This document shows positions 14,822-38,251 of a stretch of DNA of 44,298 nt, piece by piece (position 1 is the first letter of the stretch; every line of letters starts with the position of its first letter). Source of the stretch: a virus; the IMG/VR virus record IMGVR_UViG_3300037156_000113, positions 1 through 44,298 of that record, one strand, 5' to 3'. Both the position numbers and the translations under genes were made by a program. The notes under the pieces are model-generated. The model ran no database searches and was not told the origin of the DNA. It worked only from the letters and a program-made list of their open reading frames with translations.

Positions 14822-15322
14822 CTATCGGGCGGCGATCGTCATTATCCCGTAGTACGCGAGTAGGCCGGCTTCGGCCACTCCATCGTCCATCGCCCTGGTC
14901 AAGTGCGGCGCAAGGCTCGGGATCAGCTCCCGGGCGCGGTGGATCGAGGCTTGCTTGCCCATCCCCGCCAGCCCAAGTTTGGCTTTCCATACACTCGGGT
15001 CCGCGGGATGAATCGGCGCGTCAATATACATGAGCAACGCCGTCATGAAGCCCGTCGATCGGCCGAAGCTGAATATCGAATTGACCCCTTGGCCGGTCCA
15101 GGCGCCGACGCGCTCAACCACGAAAACGTCCGGCTGGGTGAACAGCAAACTCTGACGCCATTGGCGGGCCCACTCCCGTTCATCGGGCTTTTTCGAGATT
15201 GTCTTTTTGCCCTTGGGAACCGATGGCTGATAGAGAGGCACGCGATCGACGATCGTTGAACCGTCCTCGAAAAGGGTGACCAATGCACCGTTCTTGCCGG
15301 GGTCTGAACCGCAAATAATCAT
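14822..15322 (-). CDS. RuvC-like Holliday junction resolvase
   Basis: 166 residues, ATG at 15322 in an ATGA overlap with the upstream HNH gene. RNase H-fold acidic residues are visible in RuvC order: D7 in SDPGKNGAL, E70 in VFVVERVGA, and D146/D147 in MDDGVAEAG. The FGRSTGFMTALLM block and the PSVWKAKLGLAGMGK region are typical of phage RuvC-like enzymes. It would resolve branched DNA before packaging. Last gene of the leftward arm. Confidence 0.85.
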   Translation of the reverse strand: MIICGSDPGKNGALVTLFEDGSTIVDRVPLYQPSVPKGKKTISKKPDEREWARQWRQSLLFTQPDVFVVERVGAWTGQGVNSIFSFGRSTGFMTALLMYIDAPIHPADPSVWKAKLGLAGMGKQASIHRARELIPSLAPHLTRAMDDGVAEAGLLAYYGIMTIAAR

Positions 15323-15816
15323 GTTGCAAGCCTCGCCTGTTTGAGCCATTCGGGCTCGTCATAGAATGGGATCAATTCTACCGGAAGATCCTCGGCCGAG
15401 CCATAGATTTCGTAATAGTCGGAAAGGCCGACTTGCAAATGAACGAAATGCCGGCGCCGCTCTGTTTGGAGCCAACGATTATAGTCGCCCGTGATCGCCT
15501 GCACATGCTCAACGCAAAGGTGATTTGGCAGCGGGATATTGGGGCAGCAATGATCGACCTGGAGCCCGTCGATATCGAGCCCATGGATATTCTTTGCGCT
15601 CCAGCGGTGGACTAGGTGCGTTTTTCCTTTGTCCTTGAATGACCCATAGCGGATCGATTTGCCGCGGCCCCAGCATTTTGCCCCGGTCCATATGACGCAC
15701 CCCGTCTCGGGCTCAAAACGGCACAAATTAGCAAACCGGATAATGGGGTTCGTTTTGACGAAACCCTGGATCCCCGGGATGGCATGGCTAGTAACGCTTG
15801 TGCCTCCCCAGCTCAT
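15319..15816 (-). CDS. HNH endonuclease (zinc-binding HNH_3 type)
   Basis: 165 residues from the ATG at 15816, which overlaps the YDL-TGA end of the upstream gene. The first part (RFANLCRFEPETGCVIWTGA) and the core HLVHRWSAKNIHGL, LQVDHCCPNIPLPNHLCVEH, VQAIT carry the DH...C...C..H ligands of this HNH family (D88, H89, C90, C101, H104). A domain of about 50 residues follows that I do not recognise. Such proteins are common singletons in phage replication clusters; it may be a homing endonuclease or a recombination nuclease. It overlaps the RuvC-like gene by ATGA. Confidence 0.72.
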   Translation of the reverse strand: MSWGGTSVTSHAIPGIQGFVKTNPIIRFANLCRFEPETGCVIWTGAKCWGRGKSIRYGSFKDKGKTHLVHRWSAKNIHGLDIDGLQVDHCCPNIPLPNHLCVEHVQAITGDYNRWLQTERRRHFVHLQVGLSDYYEIYGSAEDLPVELIPFYDEPEWLKQARLAT

Positions 15817-16040
15817 AAATCGTACTCCAAAAATCGAACGACCAAAATCCAATTCTGGACTTGCCGAGCGATCGCAAGATATTCCCGGCTCGGGGTTTTT
15901 GTGATTTCCTGCCCCGGTCGATAGGTACGCCAGATTTGATCGCGCAGCCCTCCGGGGAGCTGATACCAATGCTCGCGGCAACCCCACATTTTAGGAGGCA
16001 CGGCACGCCGGCAACCGGGCCAATGACAAGTGTGGCTCAT
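15813..16040 (-). CDS. Small zinc-binding phage protein (CHWPGC type)
   Basis: 75 residues. CHWPGC near the N-terminus and WGCREHW at about residue 19 provide two Cys-containing clusters with a His, likely one zinc site. The rest (LPGGLRDQIWRTYRPGQEI) is a well-known small phage protein pattern of unknown function. It ends in LEYDL-stop, with the stop overlapping the start of the HNH gene. Upstream it overlaps a duplicated piece of polymerase C-terminus. Confidence 0.65.
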   Translation of the reverse strand: MSHTCHWPGCRRAVPPKMWGCREHWYQLPGGLRDQIWRTYRPGQEITKTPSREYLAIARQVQNWILVVRFLEYDL

Positions 16041-16102: not shown

Positions 16103-16805
16103 ACCAATCGGATGGCCTCTGCCCCCAATTTACCCTTCTGGCACGGCATGTCTCCTCCCATTCTTTCTGTTCTTTCTGTTTTTTAGCCTCGGCTTCCTGA
16201 TTTTTCTGATCGCGAGATTTCCAATTAGTATTCGGGACATAATCAATGGTTTCGGGGGCCATTTTCATATGAAAGTTACTTTCATCTACTTGAGCGTGTC
16301 GTCGCATTTTACGCAAAGCTGTGGCTTCAATTTGATGTATGCGGGCAACCGAAAGATTAAGTTGTTCAGCAATTTCCCCCGCCGTTTCACCCTCCGCACG
16401 GGCTTCTATAATCTGACGGGAACGCTCGTTCAAGCCGCCCAACAACCTTTGTGTTTCTATCCGCGCCCAACTCTGGCTCTCGGCATCCCCGCTGGCCAAC
16501 GCCATAACTTGAGGTTCGTCCATTTCAATAGTTCGGCTGTTGCTTTTGATAGCTAAGGTAAGTTGAGATTCGGTGAACATATCTTCGGGATCGCAACACA
16601 AAACCCCGGCGATATTTTCCACCCCGCCCGCCCACTGCCCCCGGGAGTTTACGGGGGCTTTTTTGAGATTAATAATGTCCCCTATTTGGCTTTGGGTAAC
16701 GCCACATTTACGGGAAAGTTCGGCTACCGTAGCGATACCCGCTTTCCTCATAAGGCGCAGGATGCGGCCGTTCTTAATAGTGATTTTGACTGTGTAATCG
16801 GTCAT
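16092..16805 (-). CDS. XRE-HTH plus sigma-region-4-like transcription factor
   Basis: 237 residues, ATG at 16805 in an ATGA overlap with the polymerase. Residues about 13-50 (AELSRKCGVTQSQIGDIINL) read as an XRE/Cro helix-turn-helix. Residues about 120-170 (LLGGLNERSRQIIEARAEG, TAGEIAEQLNLSVARIHQIE, ATALRKMRR) are a sigma-70 region 4 helix-turn-helix. No region 2 is seen, so it is not a full sigma factor; it may redirect host RNA polymerase to late genes. The C-terminus is a charged helix (RDQKNQEAEAKKQKEQ) and ends DWYDL. It sits between two copies of the polymerase 3' end, a sign of insertion. Confidence 0.75.
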   Translation of the reverse strand: MTDYTVKITIKNGRILRLMRKAGIATVAELSRKCGVTQSQIGDIINLKKAPVNSRGQWAGGVENIAGVLCCDPEDMFTESQLTLAIKSNSRTIEMDEPQVMALASGDAESQSWARIETQRLLGGLNERSRQIIEARAEGETAGEIAEQLNLSVARIHQIEATALRKMRRHAQVDESNFHMKMAPETIDYVPNTNWKSRDQKNQEAEAKKQKEQKEWEETCRARRVNWGQRPSDWYDL

Positions 16806-19663
16806 TTCTGATACCTTTCCATAGTGCCGCACTCGGCTTTCACATTGAAGCGCCGCTCCCGAGCCCATGCCGGGACATCCTCCATTATCTGTTTGAGTTG
16901 CAACGCCATGGCGTCCCGATCGCCGGTATCAAGCAGTTCCAGTACAATTTCATCGTGTGCCGTGAACACTGCCGGAAGACGCTCTCGCTCGCAGCGGAGC
17001 AAGGCGTGCCGGATTAAGTCGGCTGCACTGCCCTGGACCAAGTTATTCATAAGCTGCCCGTACCACATGAAATTCCGACGGGTCTTTTTGCCTTGGTAGG
17101 ACAGGAAGCTCCATGCCGGATATTCGTTGCCGGTGGAGGGGTTGTAACTCTTTTCGCAGCGGGGCTTGTGATACCAGATCTTGCGGCCACTTGGGAGCCG
17201 CATCGTCAGATAGTCGCCTTCCTTGCGGAATTCGATGCCGGCGAATATGTAGGTCCGCGCGTCATTGCACCAAACTGCATCCACCGAAGCTTGATAGAGC
17301 CCGTACCAAAAACGGGTGACTAAGGGAGCAAATTCAGCACGATAAGTCGATACGGCTAGTTGGGCCAACTCAAAGGTGTCGTTTGGGGCGAACTTCGCCT
17401 GAAAGCCAAGGGCACCCAAACCGAAGCCGCAGTTATGCACGATCAACGGGCCGTCAGAGGTCATAACGGTGAATCTGTTTTCCGGCCCCGCATGTGCAAG
17501 ATCGTAAACAGGCTCGTAGCCGTTCAAGTTCGGCTTCCGCTTTTCCCGCTGAACGCCGGTTGGCGTTATTTTGGGCAGGAGTAGTGAACCGAAGGTTCCC
17601 CGGCTCGTAATGGCCGTCGTTGTTAACTCGGTCAATTTGTAATGCGGGATTGTCCCATCCCGGAAGGGAAATAAGGTATTCCAAAGCGTCCCAATAATTT
17701 GGGAAATTGAACTTAATGCCCCGTCCGCCATAGTCCTTATATCGGGGGTCTTTTGATTCTGTACAGCGGTGTTTCGCGTAGTATAAGCGGCGGACCAACC
17801 TTTCCCGATGAAAGGGGTCAGGACAGATTGAATCATACCGACGAATCCCCCGATATGACCGATGGGCTTTTGGCCGCGAGCAACTCCGACAACCCCTAGA
17901 TCTACCGGAATGGAAGTTATGTACATCGACGTATTGAGGGAACTCCCGGCAATCGCACTGGCATACCAAGACGGCCAAAAATCCTGTTTCGGTATAGGCA
18001 TACCCCCGAACGGTCCATGATCCTTGGCGAAGGCCAACGCTTGGGATTTCTCTTGTGCTGTCAGGCCGTCTGCGCGGCACCATCGGTCCCCAATGAAAAC
18101 CAAGTGATCCGGGGTCAGACGTAATTGGGAGAAATTCAAGGTTCTCTGGTTGCCCTTGAATACAAGTCCCTGATGCGTAACCCAATTTTTGCCATCCCAT
18201 AGCCGGTCCTCCTTTTCGACCTTCACAATGGGCTTCCATCCATCCTTAGTCAATACTAAAGTGTCCGCCGCCAAACAACCTAAAAGCGCATTCTTGCCCG
18301 TCTGGCGTTCGGGACTTTTCTTGTCAGTGATCGGCCGCTTGAAAATCATTGAAGCTAGTTCAGCGTAAGCGTCAGTCGTATCAAACTGCATTGCCCGATC
18401 ATGATGGCCAGCAAAGCTAAGAACATTACGGGCCTCCACTTGGGCATAGTCCCCCACGACGAGAACACAATTCTTAGAACGATCAGGAACAATGCAAGAG
18501 CGCAGAGAGCTAATAATAGCAGCAAAAATGTCATTACCCCATAACTCCCTAATTCGGTTCAGATCCCGAGACAAAATTGCCTCGGCGAGAATTTCCGGCG
18601 TCAATCCTTGGTGCGCCTGGAATGTCCCGCGCGGGTAATTCTGAATCTGGATCAAGCGCCCCGCCCACCGGCCCGTATTGGCTCCGTGATACTGCATTGT
18701 ATAGCGAACCCGGCCATCGGGACCGGCACACCGCAACATGCGCTCCAGCTTCGCCACAGAGGACGACGCGAGCGACCGGCGAAGGTCCAGCACCTTGTAA
18801 ACATGCGGAGGTATTGGAGCCGTGGCGATCGTCTCCCAGGCCCCCATATCTATGTCTTCCTCGGGATCGAGCATCGCGTCCAGCGTGCCCTTGCGCATGT
18901 CATCGAGAGGCACGCCTTGCTCGTTTACCCAATTCAGGATTTTCTCACGTTGCGTGGGATTGAGCCCCGTCAATTCCTGAAACCGCTTCGTCATCGGAAT
19001 TCGGACTTGATTCAGAACGTCGATGCAGGCATGGACAAACGGCACGTCGATCAAGACCCCGCGCTGATTGATGCGCTGGTCAGTCATCCAGATTGCGCGC
19101 TCACCTTCGCCTAAGCCGCCCGTGGCAAGATAGACCTGAAACTGGCTGTCAACATCGGTGACATTGTATTCGGCTTCCCGTTGCATTTTCTCCGGGGTAT
19201 GGTGCGACCAATTCCCATCTTTGTCCGGCTTGCACATATGCAACATCAACCGATGGCCTTCCATATCCTTGCGGATTGGCAACTCCAGCGCCCCGCCAAG
19301 TGCATCGAGCCCGAGCGGCAACGAATGCATAGCCGCCGACGCCATGGTGTCATGCCAACGCTCAATCGGGATATCCGGATAGCCGAGCGGGACCATGTGG
19401 AATCGCCACATACTCATTTCGAAGCTGCAATTATGCGCGCAGAAAATTACCGAGGGATCTTGCACAAGATCGAGCAATTCAGGGTCAATGCGATTGACCG
19501 CAGCACCATAAAGAACCCGCGTAGGGGCTGGAATATGGTCGGTTACGACTTTGAAGCCAATATGAGTAATAAACGTGCTGAAATCTTGACTGTATCTCCA
19601 TGCCCCGCTCTTTAGCAGGTCACAACAAGAGGCAGTCTCAAAATCGAGGACGACGTATCTCAT
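16802..19663 (-). CDS. Family A DNA polymerase with 3'-5' exonuclease, intein-interrupted
   Basis: 953 residues including a 282-residue intein (463-744). Exonuclease motifs are present: VLDFET (D7, E9), FCAHNCSFE and AEYNVTDVDSQ. Polymerase motif A is GDYAQVEAR (D405, E410). Motif B (RQTGKNALLG then CGFGLG) is split by the intein between G462 and C463, with C745 as the first residue of the C-extein. Motif C is FTAHDEIVLEL (H903-D904-E905). The spliced enzyme is about 671 residues, a usual size for phage polymerases of this type. It replicates the phage genome. It overlaps small genes at both ends by ATGA. Confidence 0.92.
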   Translation of the reverse strand: MRYVVLDFETASCCDLLKSGAWRYSQDFSTFITHIGFKVVTDHIPAPTRVLYGAAVNRIDPELLDLVQDPSVIFCAHNCSFEMSMWRFHMVPLGYPDIPIERWHDTMASAAMHSLPLGLDALGGALELPIRKDMEGHRLMLHMCKPDKDGNWSHHTPEKMQREAEYNVTDVDSQFQVYLATGGLGEGERAIWMTDQRINQRGVLIDVPFVHACIDVLNQVRIPMTKRFQELTGLNPTQREKILNWVNEQGVPLDDMRKGTLDAMLDPEEDIDMGAWETIATAPIPPHVYKVLDLRRSLASSSVAKLERMLRCAGPDGRVRYTMQYHGANTGRWAGRLIQIQNYPRGTFQAHQGLTPEILAEAILSRDLNRIRELWGNDIFAAIISSLRSCIVPDRSKNCVLVVGDYAQVEARNVLSFAGHHDRAMQFDTTDAYAELASMIFKRPITDKKSPERQTGKNALLGCLAADTLVLTKDGWKPIVKVEKEDRLWDGKNWVTHQGLVFKGNQRTLNFSQLRLTPDHLVFIGDRWCRADGLTAQEKSQALAFAKDHGPFGGMPIPKQDFWPSWYASAIAGSSLNTSMYITSIPVDLGVVGVARGQKPIGHIGGFVGMIQSVLTPFIGKGWSAAYTTRNTAVQNQKTPDIRTMADGALSSISQIIGTLWNTLFPFRDGTIPHYKLTELTTTAITSRGTFGSLLLPKITPTGVQREKRKPNLNGYEPVYDLAHAGPENRFTVMTSDGPLIVHNCGFGLGALGFQAKFAPNDTFELAQLAVSTYRAEFAPLVTRFWYGLYQASVDAVWCNDARTYIFAGIEFRKEGDYLTMRLPSGRKIWYHKPRCEKSYNPSTGNEYPAWSFLSYQGKKTRRNFMWYGQLMNNLVQGSAADLIRHALLRCERERLPAVFTAHDEIVLELLDTGDRDAMALQLKQIMEDVPAWARERRFNVKAECGTMERYQK
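17432..18277 (-). other. Intein in DNA polymerase motif B
   Basis: The insert starts with C463 (block A: CLAADTLVLTKDGWKPI), has block B as LTPDHLVF (T55 and H58 of the intein), block F as YEPVYDLAHAG near intein residue 254 and block G as LIVHN followed by Cys+1. These supply all residues for standard class 1 splicing: Cys1, block B T..H, penultimate His281, Asn282, Cys+1. The flanking polymerase reads LLG then CGFGLG in motif B, a typical conserved target. Between about residues 85 and 245 the intein frame does not look like a protein family, and the same DNA encodes an HNH endonuclease in another frame. Confidence 0.92.
17454..18200 (-). CDS. HNH homing endonuclease nested out of frame inside the intein
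   Basis: 248 residues from the ATG at 18200. The sequence AAAAGGAGG lies at 18208-18216, seven bases upstream, so internal initiation is likely; an ATG at 18239 lacks this. The conserved part has a Cys cluster (VCQCDC at 79-84, RGCRSC at 102-107), then RYKDYGGRGI (153-162) and the catalytic region LQIDRVNNDGHYEPGNLRF with NNANRR, the pattern of phage HNH homing endonucleases like the one at 37667. The frame is offset by -1 from the polymerase. It stops inside intein block F and ends in YDL, the C-terminal tag shared by many genes here. It should mobilise the intein. Confidence 0.85.
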   Translation of the reverse strand: MGWQKLGYASGTCIQGQPENLEFLPITSDPGSLGFHWGPMVPRRRPDSTREIPSVGLRQGSWTVRGYAYTETGFLAVLVCQCDCREFPQYVDVHNFHSGRSRGCRSCSRPKAHRSYRGIRRYDSICPDPFHRERLVRRLYYAKHRCTESKDPRYKDYGGRGIKFNFPNYWDALEYLISLPGWDNPALQIDRVNNDGHYEPGNLRFTTPAQNNANRRSAGKAEAELERLRACLRSCTCGAGKQIHRYDL

Positions 19664-35904: not shown

Positions 35905-37670
35905 TGGATATCGCCGGGATTGCAGCCGAATATGGGATTTCCAGCGACGAAGTGCGCGGGCGCTATCTGGCGCTGAAAGCCGCGCAATGGAAATCCGACT
36001 TTCGGTTATTTTGCCGCGACGTAATCAAGATACGGACCAAGACAGGCGATCTTGAAAAGTTGGTGCTGAACGAAGCGCAAACGATTCTTCACAACGCTGC
36101 CGAAGCGATGCTTGATACCGAAGGCTGGGTGCGTCTCGCCGGGCTCAAGGGACGCCGCCAGGGCTTTTCCACCTACGTTGCCGCTCGCGGCTATTGGCGC
36201 GCCACACTGTGGGACCGCCAGCGAATTTACATTCTCTCGCATGAGCAGAAATCCTCCGATGGCCTATTTGATATGGTCGCACTCATGCAGGAGAAAAACC
36301 CGTTTCCGCCTGCCGTCGGTACAGACAACGCGAAGGAATTGGAATTCGTCAAGCGGGGATCCAGCTACAGTGTTGCCACGGCGGGGCAGAAGGCGGGTGG
36401 ACGCGGCGGTGCCGTATCGTTCTTTCACGGCTCGGAAGTTGCTTGGTGGACAAACGCGGAAGATCACTTCTCGGCTTCGGTGCAGTCGGTGGATGAAGTT
36501 CGCGGCGTGCAGGGAGTGCTTTGGCGTGAGCCACCAAATCCACTTCCATTTGAGCTGGGTATCGGCGAAATCACTGGCTGGATCAAGGCACCGTCTGAAA
36601 TCTGGCTGGAGACGACTTCGGCGGGTCCAACGGGGACTTTCTATAATCGCTATATGGACGCAATGAAGGGAAAAGGCCGCTATCGGCATGTTTTCGTGCC
36701 GTGGATCGTGCAACGGGAATACAAGGAAGCCGGGGATTGGGTTGCCGAAGTCGAACCCGAAGATGAAGGCGAATTGTCCGAGGAAGAATATCAGGCGCTC
36801 AACAAACTTTCAGGTGCGCAGATGCTCTGGCGCCGTACCAAAACGCATGAACTTGGGTCTGCGGGAAAGTTCCGGCAGGAATATCCGATTGACGTTACCG
36901 AAGCCTTTGGCGCAACCGACATTGCCGACGTATTTATCAAACCTTCCACGGTGCTGCGAGCCCGTCGCCGGGGTTGGGATGAAATCCCCGATGCCCCCTT
37001 GATTATCGGGGTGGACCCCGCGGGCTCGGGCGGCGACCGCTTTGCCGTTGCCTTCCGCCGCGGGGACGTTTGTTTTGATATAAAGGTACGCCATAAGCTG
37101 GAGCATGACGACGCCGTAGCGTGGCTGGCTTCCATCATTGACGAGTATCGGCCCGAGCGTATGTGCGTCGATCGAGGTAGTTTCGGCCAGAACATCATTT
37201 CGTCGCTTCGCAATCAGAAAGCGAAGTACGCCGACACTATCCGGGGTGTCGATTTTGGAGGGACTTCCAAAGCAAAACAGGCCCATCCGAAGCGCGCTGG
37301 ACCCTGGAATAAAAGGGCAGAGATATGGGGGAATTGCAACGATTGGCTTAAACAGGGAGGCTGCATTCCAGACGAGGACGATTTGGCCAGCGATCTTTCC
37401 GGCCCTAAGCTGATCTATAGGCAAAATAATGATTGGCTTCTCACTTCAAAGTCTGATATGAAGAAATTAGGTATCAGATCTCCCGATTTGGGGGATGCTC
37501 TTTGTTTAACTTTTGCTTTTTCAGAGTTTTTTGATAGTTGGGGTAAGCCGGAAGTTGTTCGCGGATTCGAAGCTGGGTTACCACCCAGAGAAAACTATAA
37601 CTATCGTTCGGGGGACGAAATTGATAACTATGATGAAATGTCAGGAGTCCAAACAGGTTGGATGTTATGA
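35904..37670 (+). CDS. terL: Terminase large subunit
   Basis: 588 residues. ATPase: Walker A-like GRRQGFST (83-90). Nuclease (RNase H fold): IIGVDPAGSGGDR (D371), CVDRGSFGQN (D423) and SPDLGDAL (D528, D531). This packages DNA through the portal and cuts it by headful. From about base 37430 the codons become AT-richer (TTA, AGA, ACT, TCT) than in the rest of the gene, just before the adjoining HNH gene, which suggests the 3' end came with that endonuclease. Confidence 0.92.
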   Translation: MDIAGIAAEYGISSDEVRGRYLALKAAQWKSDFRLFCRDVIKIRTKTGDLEKLVLNEAQTILHNAAEAMLDTEGWVRLAGLKGRRQGFSTYVAARGYWRATLWDRQRIYILSHEQKSSDGLFDMVALMQEKNPFPPAVGTDNAKELEFVKRGSSYSVATAGQKAGGRGGAVSFFHGSEVAWWTNAEDHFSASVQSVDEVRGVQGVLWREPPNPLPFELGIGEITGWIKAPSEIWLETTSAGPTGTFYNRYMDAMKGKGRYRHVFVPWIVQREYKEAGDWVAEVEPEDEGELSEEEYQALNKLSGAQMLWRRTKTHELGSAGKFRQEYPIDVTEAFGATDIADVFIKPSTVLRARRRGWDEIPDAPLIIGVDPAGSGGDRFAVAFRRGDVCFDIKVRHKLEHDDAVAWLASIIDEYRPERMCVDRGSFGQNIISSLRNQKAKYADTIRGVDFGGTSKAKQAHPKRAGPWNKRAEIWGNCNDWLKQGGCIPDEDDLASDLSGPKLIYRQNNDWLLTSKSDMKKLGIRSPDLGDALCLTFAFSEFFDSWGKPEVVRGFEAGLPPRENYNYRSGDEIDNYDEMSGVQTGWML

Positions 37671-38251
37671 ATTCTTTTCCCGCGCCTAAATGGAAGAACA
37701 AAACTAAAGATACCAAGAGGACTTATGCTTCTTGGAATTCGATGTTGCACAGGTGCTACGACCTGAATTCAGTCTCTTATAAATATTACGGTGCGAGAGG
37801 GATAACTGTTTGTGATCGCTGGCGGGAAAGCTATGATGATTTTGTCGAGGATATGGGGCTACGCCCGGAAAATATGACTCTGGATCGTAAAGATAATTCT
37901 CTTGGGTATTCATCTGACAATTGCACATGGAAATCTGTGGAATACCAAAACCGCAATAAACGATCAACGAAGCCGAGAGAATTGAATGGGGAAATCAAGA
38001 CGTTGGCTGAATGGGCTAGGGATATCCCGATTACCCGAGAAGGAGTTGCTTATAGGCTGAAAACTGGGGTTTCATTTGAGCGTGCGATAGACCCAACTCC
38101 TCTCCGGACGCCCCCAAAACACGGGACCGCTACCATGGGGAGTGGGCGTTATCGGTGTACGTGTGCGTCTTGCAAAGCGGCGGTGAAAGAGTATCACCGC
38201 TTGCGTTATATAAGGTTGAAGGCTGGAAAAGCCCTTCAATTCGATCTTTAG
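37667..38251 (+). CDS. Free-standing HNH homing endonuclease
   Basis: 194 residues from the ATG at 37667 in an ATGA overlap with terL. The core YASWNSMLHRCYD, YKYYGARGITVCDRW, MTLDRKDNSLGYSSDNCTW and YQNRNKR is the HNH pattern of phage homing endonucleases. It is followed by a NUMOD-like helix-turn-helix (IKTLAEWARDIPITREGVAY, RLKTG) and a C-terminal Cys cluster (CTCASC). It is the same family as the enzyme hidden in the polymerase intein. It ends LQFDL-TAG. Its base composition is more AT-rich than the neighbours, a sign of transfer. Confidence 0.9.
   Translation: MNSFPAPKWKNKTKDTKRTYASWNSMLHRCYDLNSVSYKYYGARGITVCDRWRESYDDFVEDMGLRPENMTLDRKDNSLGYSSDNCTWKSVEYQNRNKRSTKPRELNGEIKTLAEWARDIPITREGVAYRLKTGVSFERAIDPTPLRTPPKHGTATMGSGRYRCTCASCKAAVKEYHRLRYIRLKAGKALQFDL

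Follow-up and report, generated by a model that had tools for sequence, protein, structure and literature searches.

Overprinting of a putative HNH homing endonuclease gene on a phage DNA polymerase intein, a common arrangement in one clade of PolA inteins

Can a single stretch of DNA encode a splicing element in one frame and, in another frame, the enzyme that spreads it? This question is raised by a family A DNA polymerase gene in the IMG/VR virus record IMGVR_UViG_3300037156_000113, of which the whole stretch of 44,298 nucleotides (nt) was analysed and is called the window below. The gene carries an insert that looks like an intein, and within the insert, on the same strand and shifted into the -1 frame, lies a second open reading frame (ORF) that looks like an HNH endonuclease. 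We favour, with a probability of about 0.85, the reading that this DNA specifies both products of a single mobile element, namely a class-1-type intein and an overprinted HNH homing endonuclease, whose splicing, translation from an internal start, cleavage and homing we infer from the sequences described here.

The polymerase precursor is one ORF of 953 amino acids (aa) that stays open across the HNH core, as had been claimed in the original prediction made from the letters of the DNA, and it would be reduced to 671 aa by the predicted splicing (Table 1). The polymerase sequence is interrupted after TGKNALLG and resumes with CGFGLG, and the exteins, once fused, match 32 phage polymerases that lack an intein, each in a single unbroken alignment. 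The complete splicing blocks that had been proposed were all found (Cys463, LTPDHLVF and VHN followed by Cys), and the insert shows the sequence features of a class 1 intein with Cys1, the T..H pair of block B and a C-terminal HN followed by Cys+1. These residues are strongly conserved among the 158 inteins that we scored, with Cys1 and the terminal Asn present in 158/158 each, the penultimate His in 154/158, and the +1 residue being Cys in 151 and Ser in seven. A profile comparison matched the window intein to the Mtu RecA intein with E=4e-4, and TIGR01445 (intein_Nterm) was matched with E=0.004, which is below the family cut-off; Pfam searches gave no match to the intein frame. We infer from these features that the insert is a class-1-type intein, for which protein splicing is predicted.

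The ORF in the other frame was recovered as originally described, with 248 residues from 17454 to 18200 in the -1 frame and a sequence resembling a ribosome-binding site ahead of it, AAAAGGAGG, which ends 7 nt before the ATG at 18200. The HNH frame is open, and the third frame of the intein region contains 19 stops. The ORF belongs to the families PHROG_374 (HNH endonuclease, E=5e-24) and PHROG_3377 (E=2e-16), and its conserved motifs include a zinc-ribbon-like pair of cysteine motifs and a longer core (Table 1). The kinship to a free-standing HNH gene of the same virus, which had also been proposed, holds as well, as the ORF at 37658 falls into the same PHROGs (3377 and 374) and matches the overprinted ORF distantly (27%, E=2e-4). 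This free-standing ORF (37658-38251 (+)) overlaps the end of the gene for the terminase large subunit and precedes the portal gene. Another free-standing HNH ORF (15319-15987 (-), PHROG_826, E=2e-11) overlaps the Holliday junction resolvase gene, and the window holds at least three HNH genes.

Table 1: Coordinates of the polymerase gene, the intein and the overprinted HNH ORF in the window.
Feature	Position	Strand	Remarks
Family A DNA polymerase gene with intein	16802..19663	(-)	PF00476 E=1e-15; PHROG_17 E=1e-71
Intein, 282 aa	17432..18277	(-)	Cys1 is residue 463; terminal VHN ends at residue 744; +1 residue is Cys
Intein block A, Cys1 (CLAADTLVLTKDG)	18239..18277	(-)	
Intein block B, LTPDHLVF	18095..18118	(-)	T55 and H58 invariant (52-member alignment)
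Intein-frame linker, residues about 99-241	17555..17983	(-)	Open, predicted disordered, weakly constrained; coincides with HNH core
Intein block F (VYDLAHAGPENRFTV)	17465..17509	(-)	D259 invariant, Y258 and R268 nearly invariant (52-member alignment)
Intein block G, PLIVHN, then Cys+1	17432..17449	(-)	
HNH endonuclease ORF, 248 aa	17454..18200	(-)	-1 frame; start +77 nt from intein start
Shine-Dalgarno-like AAGGAGG	18208..18214	(-)	7 nt 5' of HNH ATG
HNH frame, zinc-ribbon-like motif, first half CQCDC	17949..17963	(-)	C82 and C84 invariant (42-member alignment)
HNH frame, zinc-ribbon-like motif, second half CRSC	17880..17891	(-)	C104 and C107 invariant (42-member alignment)
HNH frame, conserved core YGGRGI ... 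LQIDRVNNDGHYEPGN ... NNANRR	17553..17732	(-)	42-member alignment

In order to place the overlap among its relatives, viral contigs were scanned with alignments of the intein (A1), of the HNH protein (A2) and of the region from block A to block B (A3), which were needed as queries because the window intein alone found zero relatives in such a scan. The A1 scan favours relatives with the same overlap, whereas A2 and A3, the latter covering only the N-block, favour no frame relation. A profile survey for N-block, C-block and HNH core followed the scans, with counts made on non-redundant inteins. Among these 172 inteins, 147 are open throughout with the HNH core out of frame, 98 of them at the offset of the window (offset 2) and 49 at offset 1, and an HNH core in frame with the intein was found in 0/172. 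The remaining inteins comprise 12 without HNH (mini-inteins), eight that are not open and have the HNH between their parts, and five left unresolved. The subset found with the N-block only gave 48 overprinted and eight mini-inteins and again none in frame. A relative listed as not open, L095_1740, is probably a chance pairing.

Relatives with differing frames were also obtained when either frame was compared with named phages by tblastn. The window's offset is present in Sodalis phage SO-1, Escherichia phages Pubbukkers and fEg-Eco19, Salmonella phage Ent3, EBPR siphovirus 2 and Vibrio phage 97.13, and the other offset in Streptococcus phage Javan107, APSE-1 and Caulobacter phage GB2A. Bacterial assemblies contributed nine loci, which probably belong to prophages and add seven cases with the HNH out of frame and two without HNH core, with none in frame; one of the out-of-frame loci (L262) looks decayed. 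On a tree of the HNH proteins from open inteins the offset changes only about twice, and each of the two frame solutions is therefore stable over long divergence. As a test against chance we shuffled synonymous codons within each HNH sequence and scored whether the intein frame stayed open. On average this was the case in 0.7% of the shuffles for offset 1 and in 2.5% for offset 2, and for the window in 1.5%. The observed intein frames are open in 147/147 cases, and the third frame has about 10 to 13 stops in each. Judged from these sequences, overprinting is not an isolated case but what PolA inteins of this phage clade commonly show, and the search for homologs with the same overlap that the original prediction had suggested thus revealed a widespread arrangement.

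Two further observations concern individual relatives. Salmonella phage SS3e (L002 / L112) has frame breaks in the intein region compared with other Jerseyviruses, possibly sequencing errors, and its annotation consequently divides the polymerase into three coding sequences (CDS). Two inteins per polymerase gene, a small one and a downstream one at an ENxxQA site, are present in L265 (a Spirochaetae metagenome-assembled genome), L083 and L085.

Selection was analysed in 40 disjoint intein pairs, of which 35 have the offset of the window, by sorting the changes, separately for each frame, into synonymous and non-synonymous ones and excluding nonsense changes; the resulting w values are counting estimates that are uncorrected for multiple hits, and the NS/SS ratio was set aside because of the few doubly synonymous sites. 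Over the HNH core, where the intein frame encodes the linker, the pairs at the window's offset gave w_HNH 0.26 and w_intein 0.81. The first 45 intein codons, which lie mostly 5' of the HNH start, show the reverse, with w_intein 0.30 and an unconstrained HNH frame (1.37), and so does the C-block with w_intein 0.19 and 0.81 for the HNH frame. Constraint acts on both frames in intein codons 45-75 (w_intein 0.33, w_HNH 0.51). The pattern was kept with pairs of >80% or >85% identity and with two transition weights, all giving a linker w_intein of 0.56-0.72 and a w_HNH of 0.16-0.22, and the five pairs at the other offset gave w_HNH 0.33 with an unconstrained linker (w_intein 1.43). By these estimates purifying selection is acting on both frames but is split by region, with the Hint blocks constrained in the intein frame and the HNH core in the other, which is the outcome of the two-frame test that had been proposed for homologs.

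The predicted folds show a similar division. AlphaFold2 modelled the intein frame (52-member alignment) with high confidence for residues 1-90 and about 251-282, with pLDDT 87-98 over most of both Hint halves and about 40 for residues 99-241, and the 30 best PDB folds for this model are inteins or intein-like Hint domains, with modest E-values from 1.4e-3. The HNH frame (42-member alignment) was modelled confidently from about residue 51 and is mostly disordered before that. The models thus suggest that the intein and the HNH protein fold mostly in complementary regions of the DNA.

In the mechanism that we propose, the intein would consist of two Hint halves, the N-terminal one made up of about residues 1-90 and the C-terminal one of about 251-282, with a long unstructured linker between them, and it would excise itself to restore the polymerase. 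The DNA of the linker would be read in the -1 frame, from the internal ATG with its own ribosome-binding site, into a separate zinc-ribbon HNH endonuclease, which would cut intein-less polymerase genes during co-infection, with the repair copying in the whole element. The main demand on the linker would be that its intein frame has no stops, and the endonuclease would set most of the linker sequence.

Several observations weigh against this interpretation. The HNH ORF of the window has no match in Pfam, and no certain general-base His of a canonical HNH was identified in the 42-member alignment, in which the core reads DR at a position where DH is usual; HNH catalysis is for this reason only putative. 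The HNH model has no significant fold match in the PDB, because of which the HNH identity rests on sequence families, and a PDB profile search with the HNH alignment returned only zinc-ribbon look-alikes. The Shine-Dalgarno sequence, a full AAGGAGG in the window, is weak or missing in many relatives. Furthermore, the linker is not fully neutral in the intein frame (w 0.56-0.81), and some constraint on its sequence is possible there.

How the HNH protein is made can be judged from its start. At the window's offset the HNH starts lie at intein nt 77 or 92, on the codons preceding two invariant Trp. A conserved start codon alone was rejected as evidence, as it overlaps these invariant Trp codons (TGG) of the intein, and we restricted the start evidence to an excess of A before the TG. 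At one of the two positions this base is A in 44/92 cases, compared with 17.5 (standard deviation 3.4) predicted from codon usage, and at the other in 53/89 compared with 31.8 (standard deviation 4.2). Internal initiation of the HNH ORF at the ATG at 18200 is likely on these grounds. Ribosomal frameshifting could instead produce the HNH protein as a fusion to the N-terminal half of the intein, as the HNH frames of several relatives reach upstream of the start positions, but two different offsets are in use, the start positions are fixed and show an excess of ATG, the Shine-Dalgarno sequence of the window is strong and well spaced, and the HNH frame is free of constraint in the first 45 intein codons, all of which makes frameshifting very unlikely.

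Evidence that bears on mobility comes from alleles with and without the insert. The SO-1 polymerase has many related intein-less records with up to 99.4% protein identity across the site, and the intein junction is exact to the base. Among the Jerseyviruses, Ent3 (with intein) and S120 (empty) share 90-100% identity up to 300 nt from the site, except in the 50 nt just upstream, where identity falls to 72%. In this 50-nt flank Ent3 and three more intein-bearing contigs match the intein-bearing fEg-Eco19, unlike three empty Jerseyviruses, and one intein-bearing contig (L114) retains the flank of the empty type. This pattern suggests co-conversion during homing, although other recombination could also give it. 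Two contigs of one sample, L085 and L083, carry a polymerase intein that is exactly 531 nt shorter in one than in the other, a length divisible by three, and is otherwise identical, with flanks of 99.5-100% identity; the deletion removes the HNH core and leaves the intein frame intact. HNH remnants after the loss of all or part of the core are also present in the inteins of L090, L100 and L270 (Pasteurella testudinis). At other polymerase sites (L136, L153 and L160) the N-half stops, the HNH ORF comes next and the C-half follows, apparently with its own ATG, and the survey found split-like forms in L180, L040 (2275), L041 (2218) and L044 (1125), with L108 being similar in appearance. Mini, overprinted and split intein forms thus exist side by side. 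The empty alleles, the flank pattern and the in-frame deletion allele are compatible with intein mobility, and together with the location inside an intein they make it quite unlikely that the HNH protein is expressed for a role other than homing, such as an attack on competing phages or DNA metabolism, of which phage HNH enzymes are in principle capable.

It is very unlikely that the HNH ORF is a decayed and untranslated relic that is open by chance under the intein. The weak ribosome-binding sites of many relatives would fit such a relic, but the HNH frame has a w of about 0.16-0.26 over the core, the four cysteines and core residues are invariant across 42 members, ATG is enriched at the HNH starts, and true decay looks otherwise, as it proceeds by in-frame deletions that leave mini-inteins. 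The rival that the original prediction had itself named, in which two compensating indels or sequencing errors moved the endonuclease out of the intein frame, has the textbook form of an intein in its favour as well as SS3e with real frame breaks in the intein region. It is scarcely credible for 98 inteins, mostly far diverged and from independent assemblies, that share one offset with both frames open, next to 49 at the other offset, none in frame and only about two changes of offset on the HNH tree. The relatives sharing the offset and the selection in both frames refute it, and the part of the intein that overlaps the HNH core is in addition predicted to be disordered. Finally, a group I intron with a homing endonuclease, as the GenBank note on SO-1 would have it, has next to no probability given no Rfam match even at E<=1, a reading frame open throughout, Cys1, the terminal Asn and C/S+1 in 158/158 inteins and a predicted Hint fold matching inteins.

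The preferred reading, an intein with an overprinted endonuclease, can be compared with three known systems. Canonical large inteins carry an in-frame endonuclease, for example of the LAGLIDADG type, between blocks B and F and are mobile by homing. The window intein shares with them a splicing domain that is interrupted by an endonuclease between these blocks, but here the endonuclease lies in the other frame (offset 77 nt) and would form a protein of its own. Fractured genes, reportedly described by Dassa and colleagues in 2009, are said to have split inteins whose halves flank a free-standing endonuclease gene. In the window, too, intein halves enclose an endonuclease gene that would be translated separately, and L136, L153, L160 and L108 resemble fractured genes, but in fractured genes the host gene is divided into two proteins that are joined by trans-splicing, whereas the halves in the window are joined in cis within the single 953-aa ORF, which runs through the endonuclease gene in a different frame. 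The closest description is the 'hidden HNH' of the ShiLan domain, which is not an intein: an HNH lies out of frame in an insertion of an actinobacteriophage DNA methylase, and its authors detected neither splicing domains nor an intein fold and concluded that it is not any known kind of intein (Arsenault, Gosselin, Gogarten 2025, PMC11855218). ShiLan is like the window in that the HNH occupies another frame of an insertion through which the frame of the host gene remains open, and also in its sporadic distribution, which implies homing (PMC11855218). Unlike in ShiLan, the carrier frame here is a full Hint intein with all splicing blocks and conserved splice residues. For HNH enzymes in inteins, an in-frame endonuclease of this type has been reported (Dalgaard et al. 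1997, as cited in PMC5050341).

No described case was known to the original prediction. The literature searched, which did not extend to subscription journals and preprints, yielded no paper that describes an intein with an overprinted endonuclease. In GenBank, however, the same architecture is present without comment as overlapping CDS in the Hamiltonella phage APSE-1 (P45/P46) and in Sodalis phage SO-1 (gp38/gp39), the latter labelled 'type I self-splicing intron', and the related non-intein ShiLan was published in 2025. The annotation of Salmonella phage Ent3 gives an intein with splicing domains only, and many records of relatives annotate only the polymerase.

In summary, the overprinted intein with its probable homing endonuclease is real, conserved, doubly coding, widespread and has been overlooked. 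We consider it probable that phage polymerase inteins of this kind form a class that is both large and old, with the overprinted endonuclease as the standard at two offsets and the mini and split forms as neighbouring states of one evolutionary cycle. Annotation with one CDS per stretch of DNA misses such overprinted endonucleases. The class revises the rule that the endonuclease of an intein is either a part of it or lost, and it provides >100 natural cases of a long gene overlap on the same strand with a recognisable fold on each frame. With them overprinting itself, the joining of free endonucleases with splicing elements and the step from cis to split inteins become directly testable, and they illustrate that a selfish gene can hide within an essential polymerase, with its own translation start, while the host protein is still able to splice whole.

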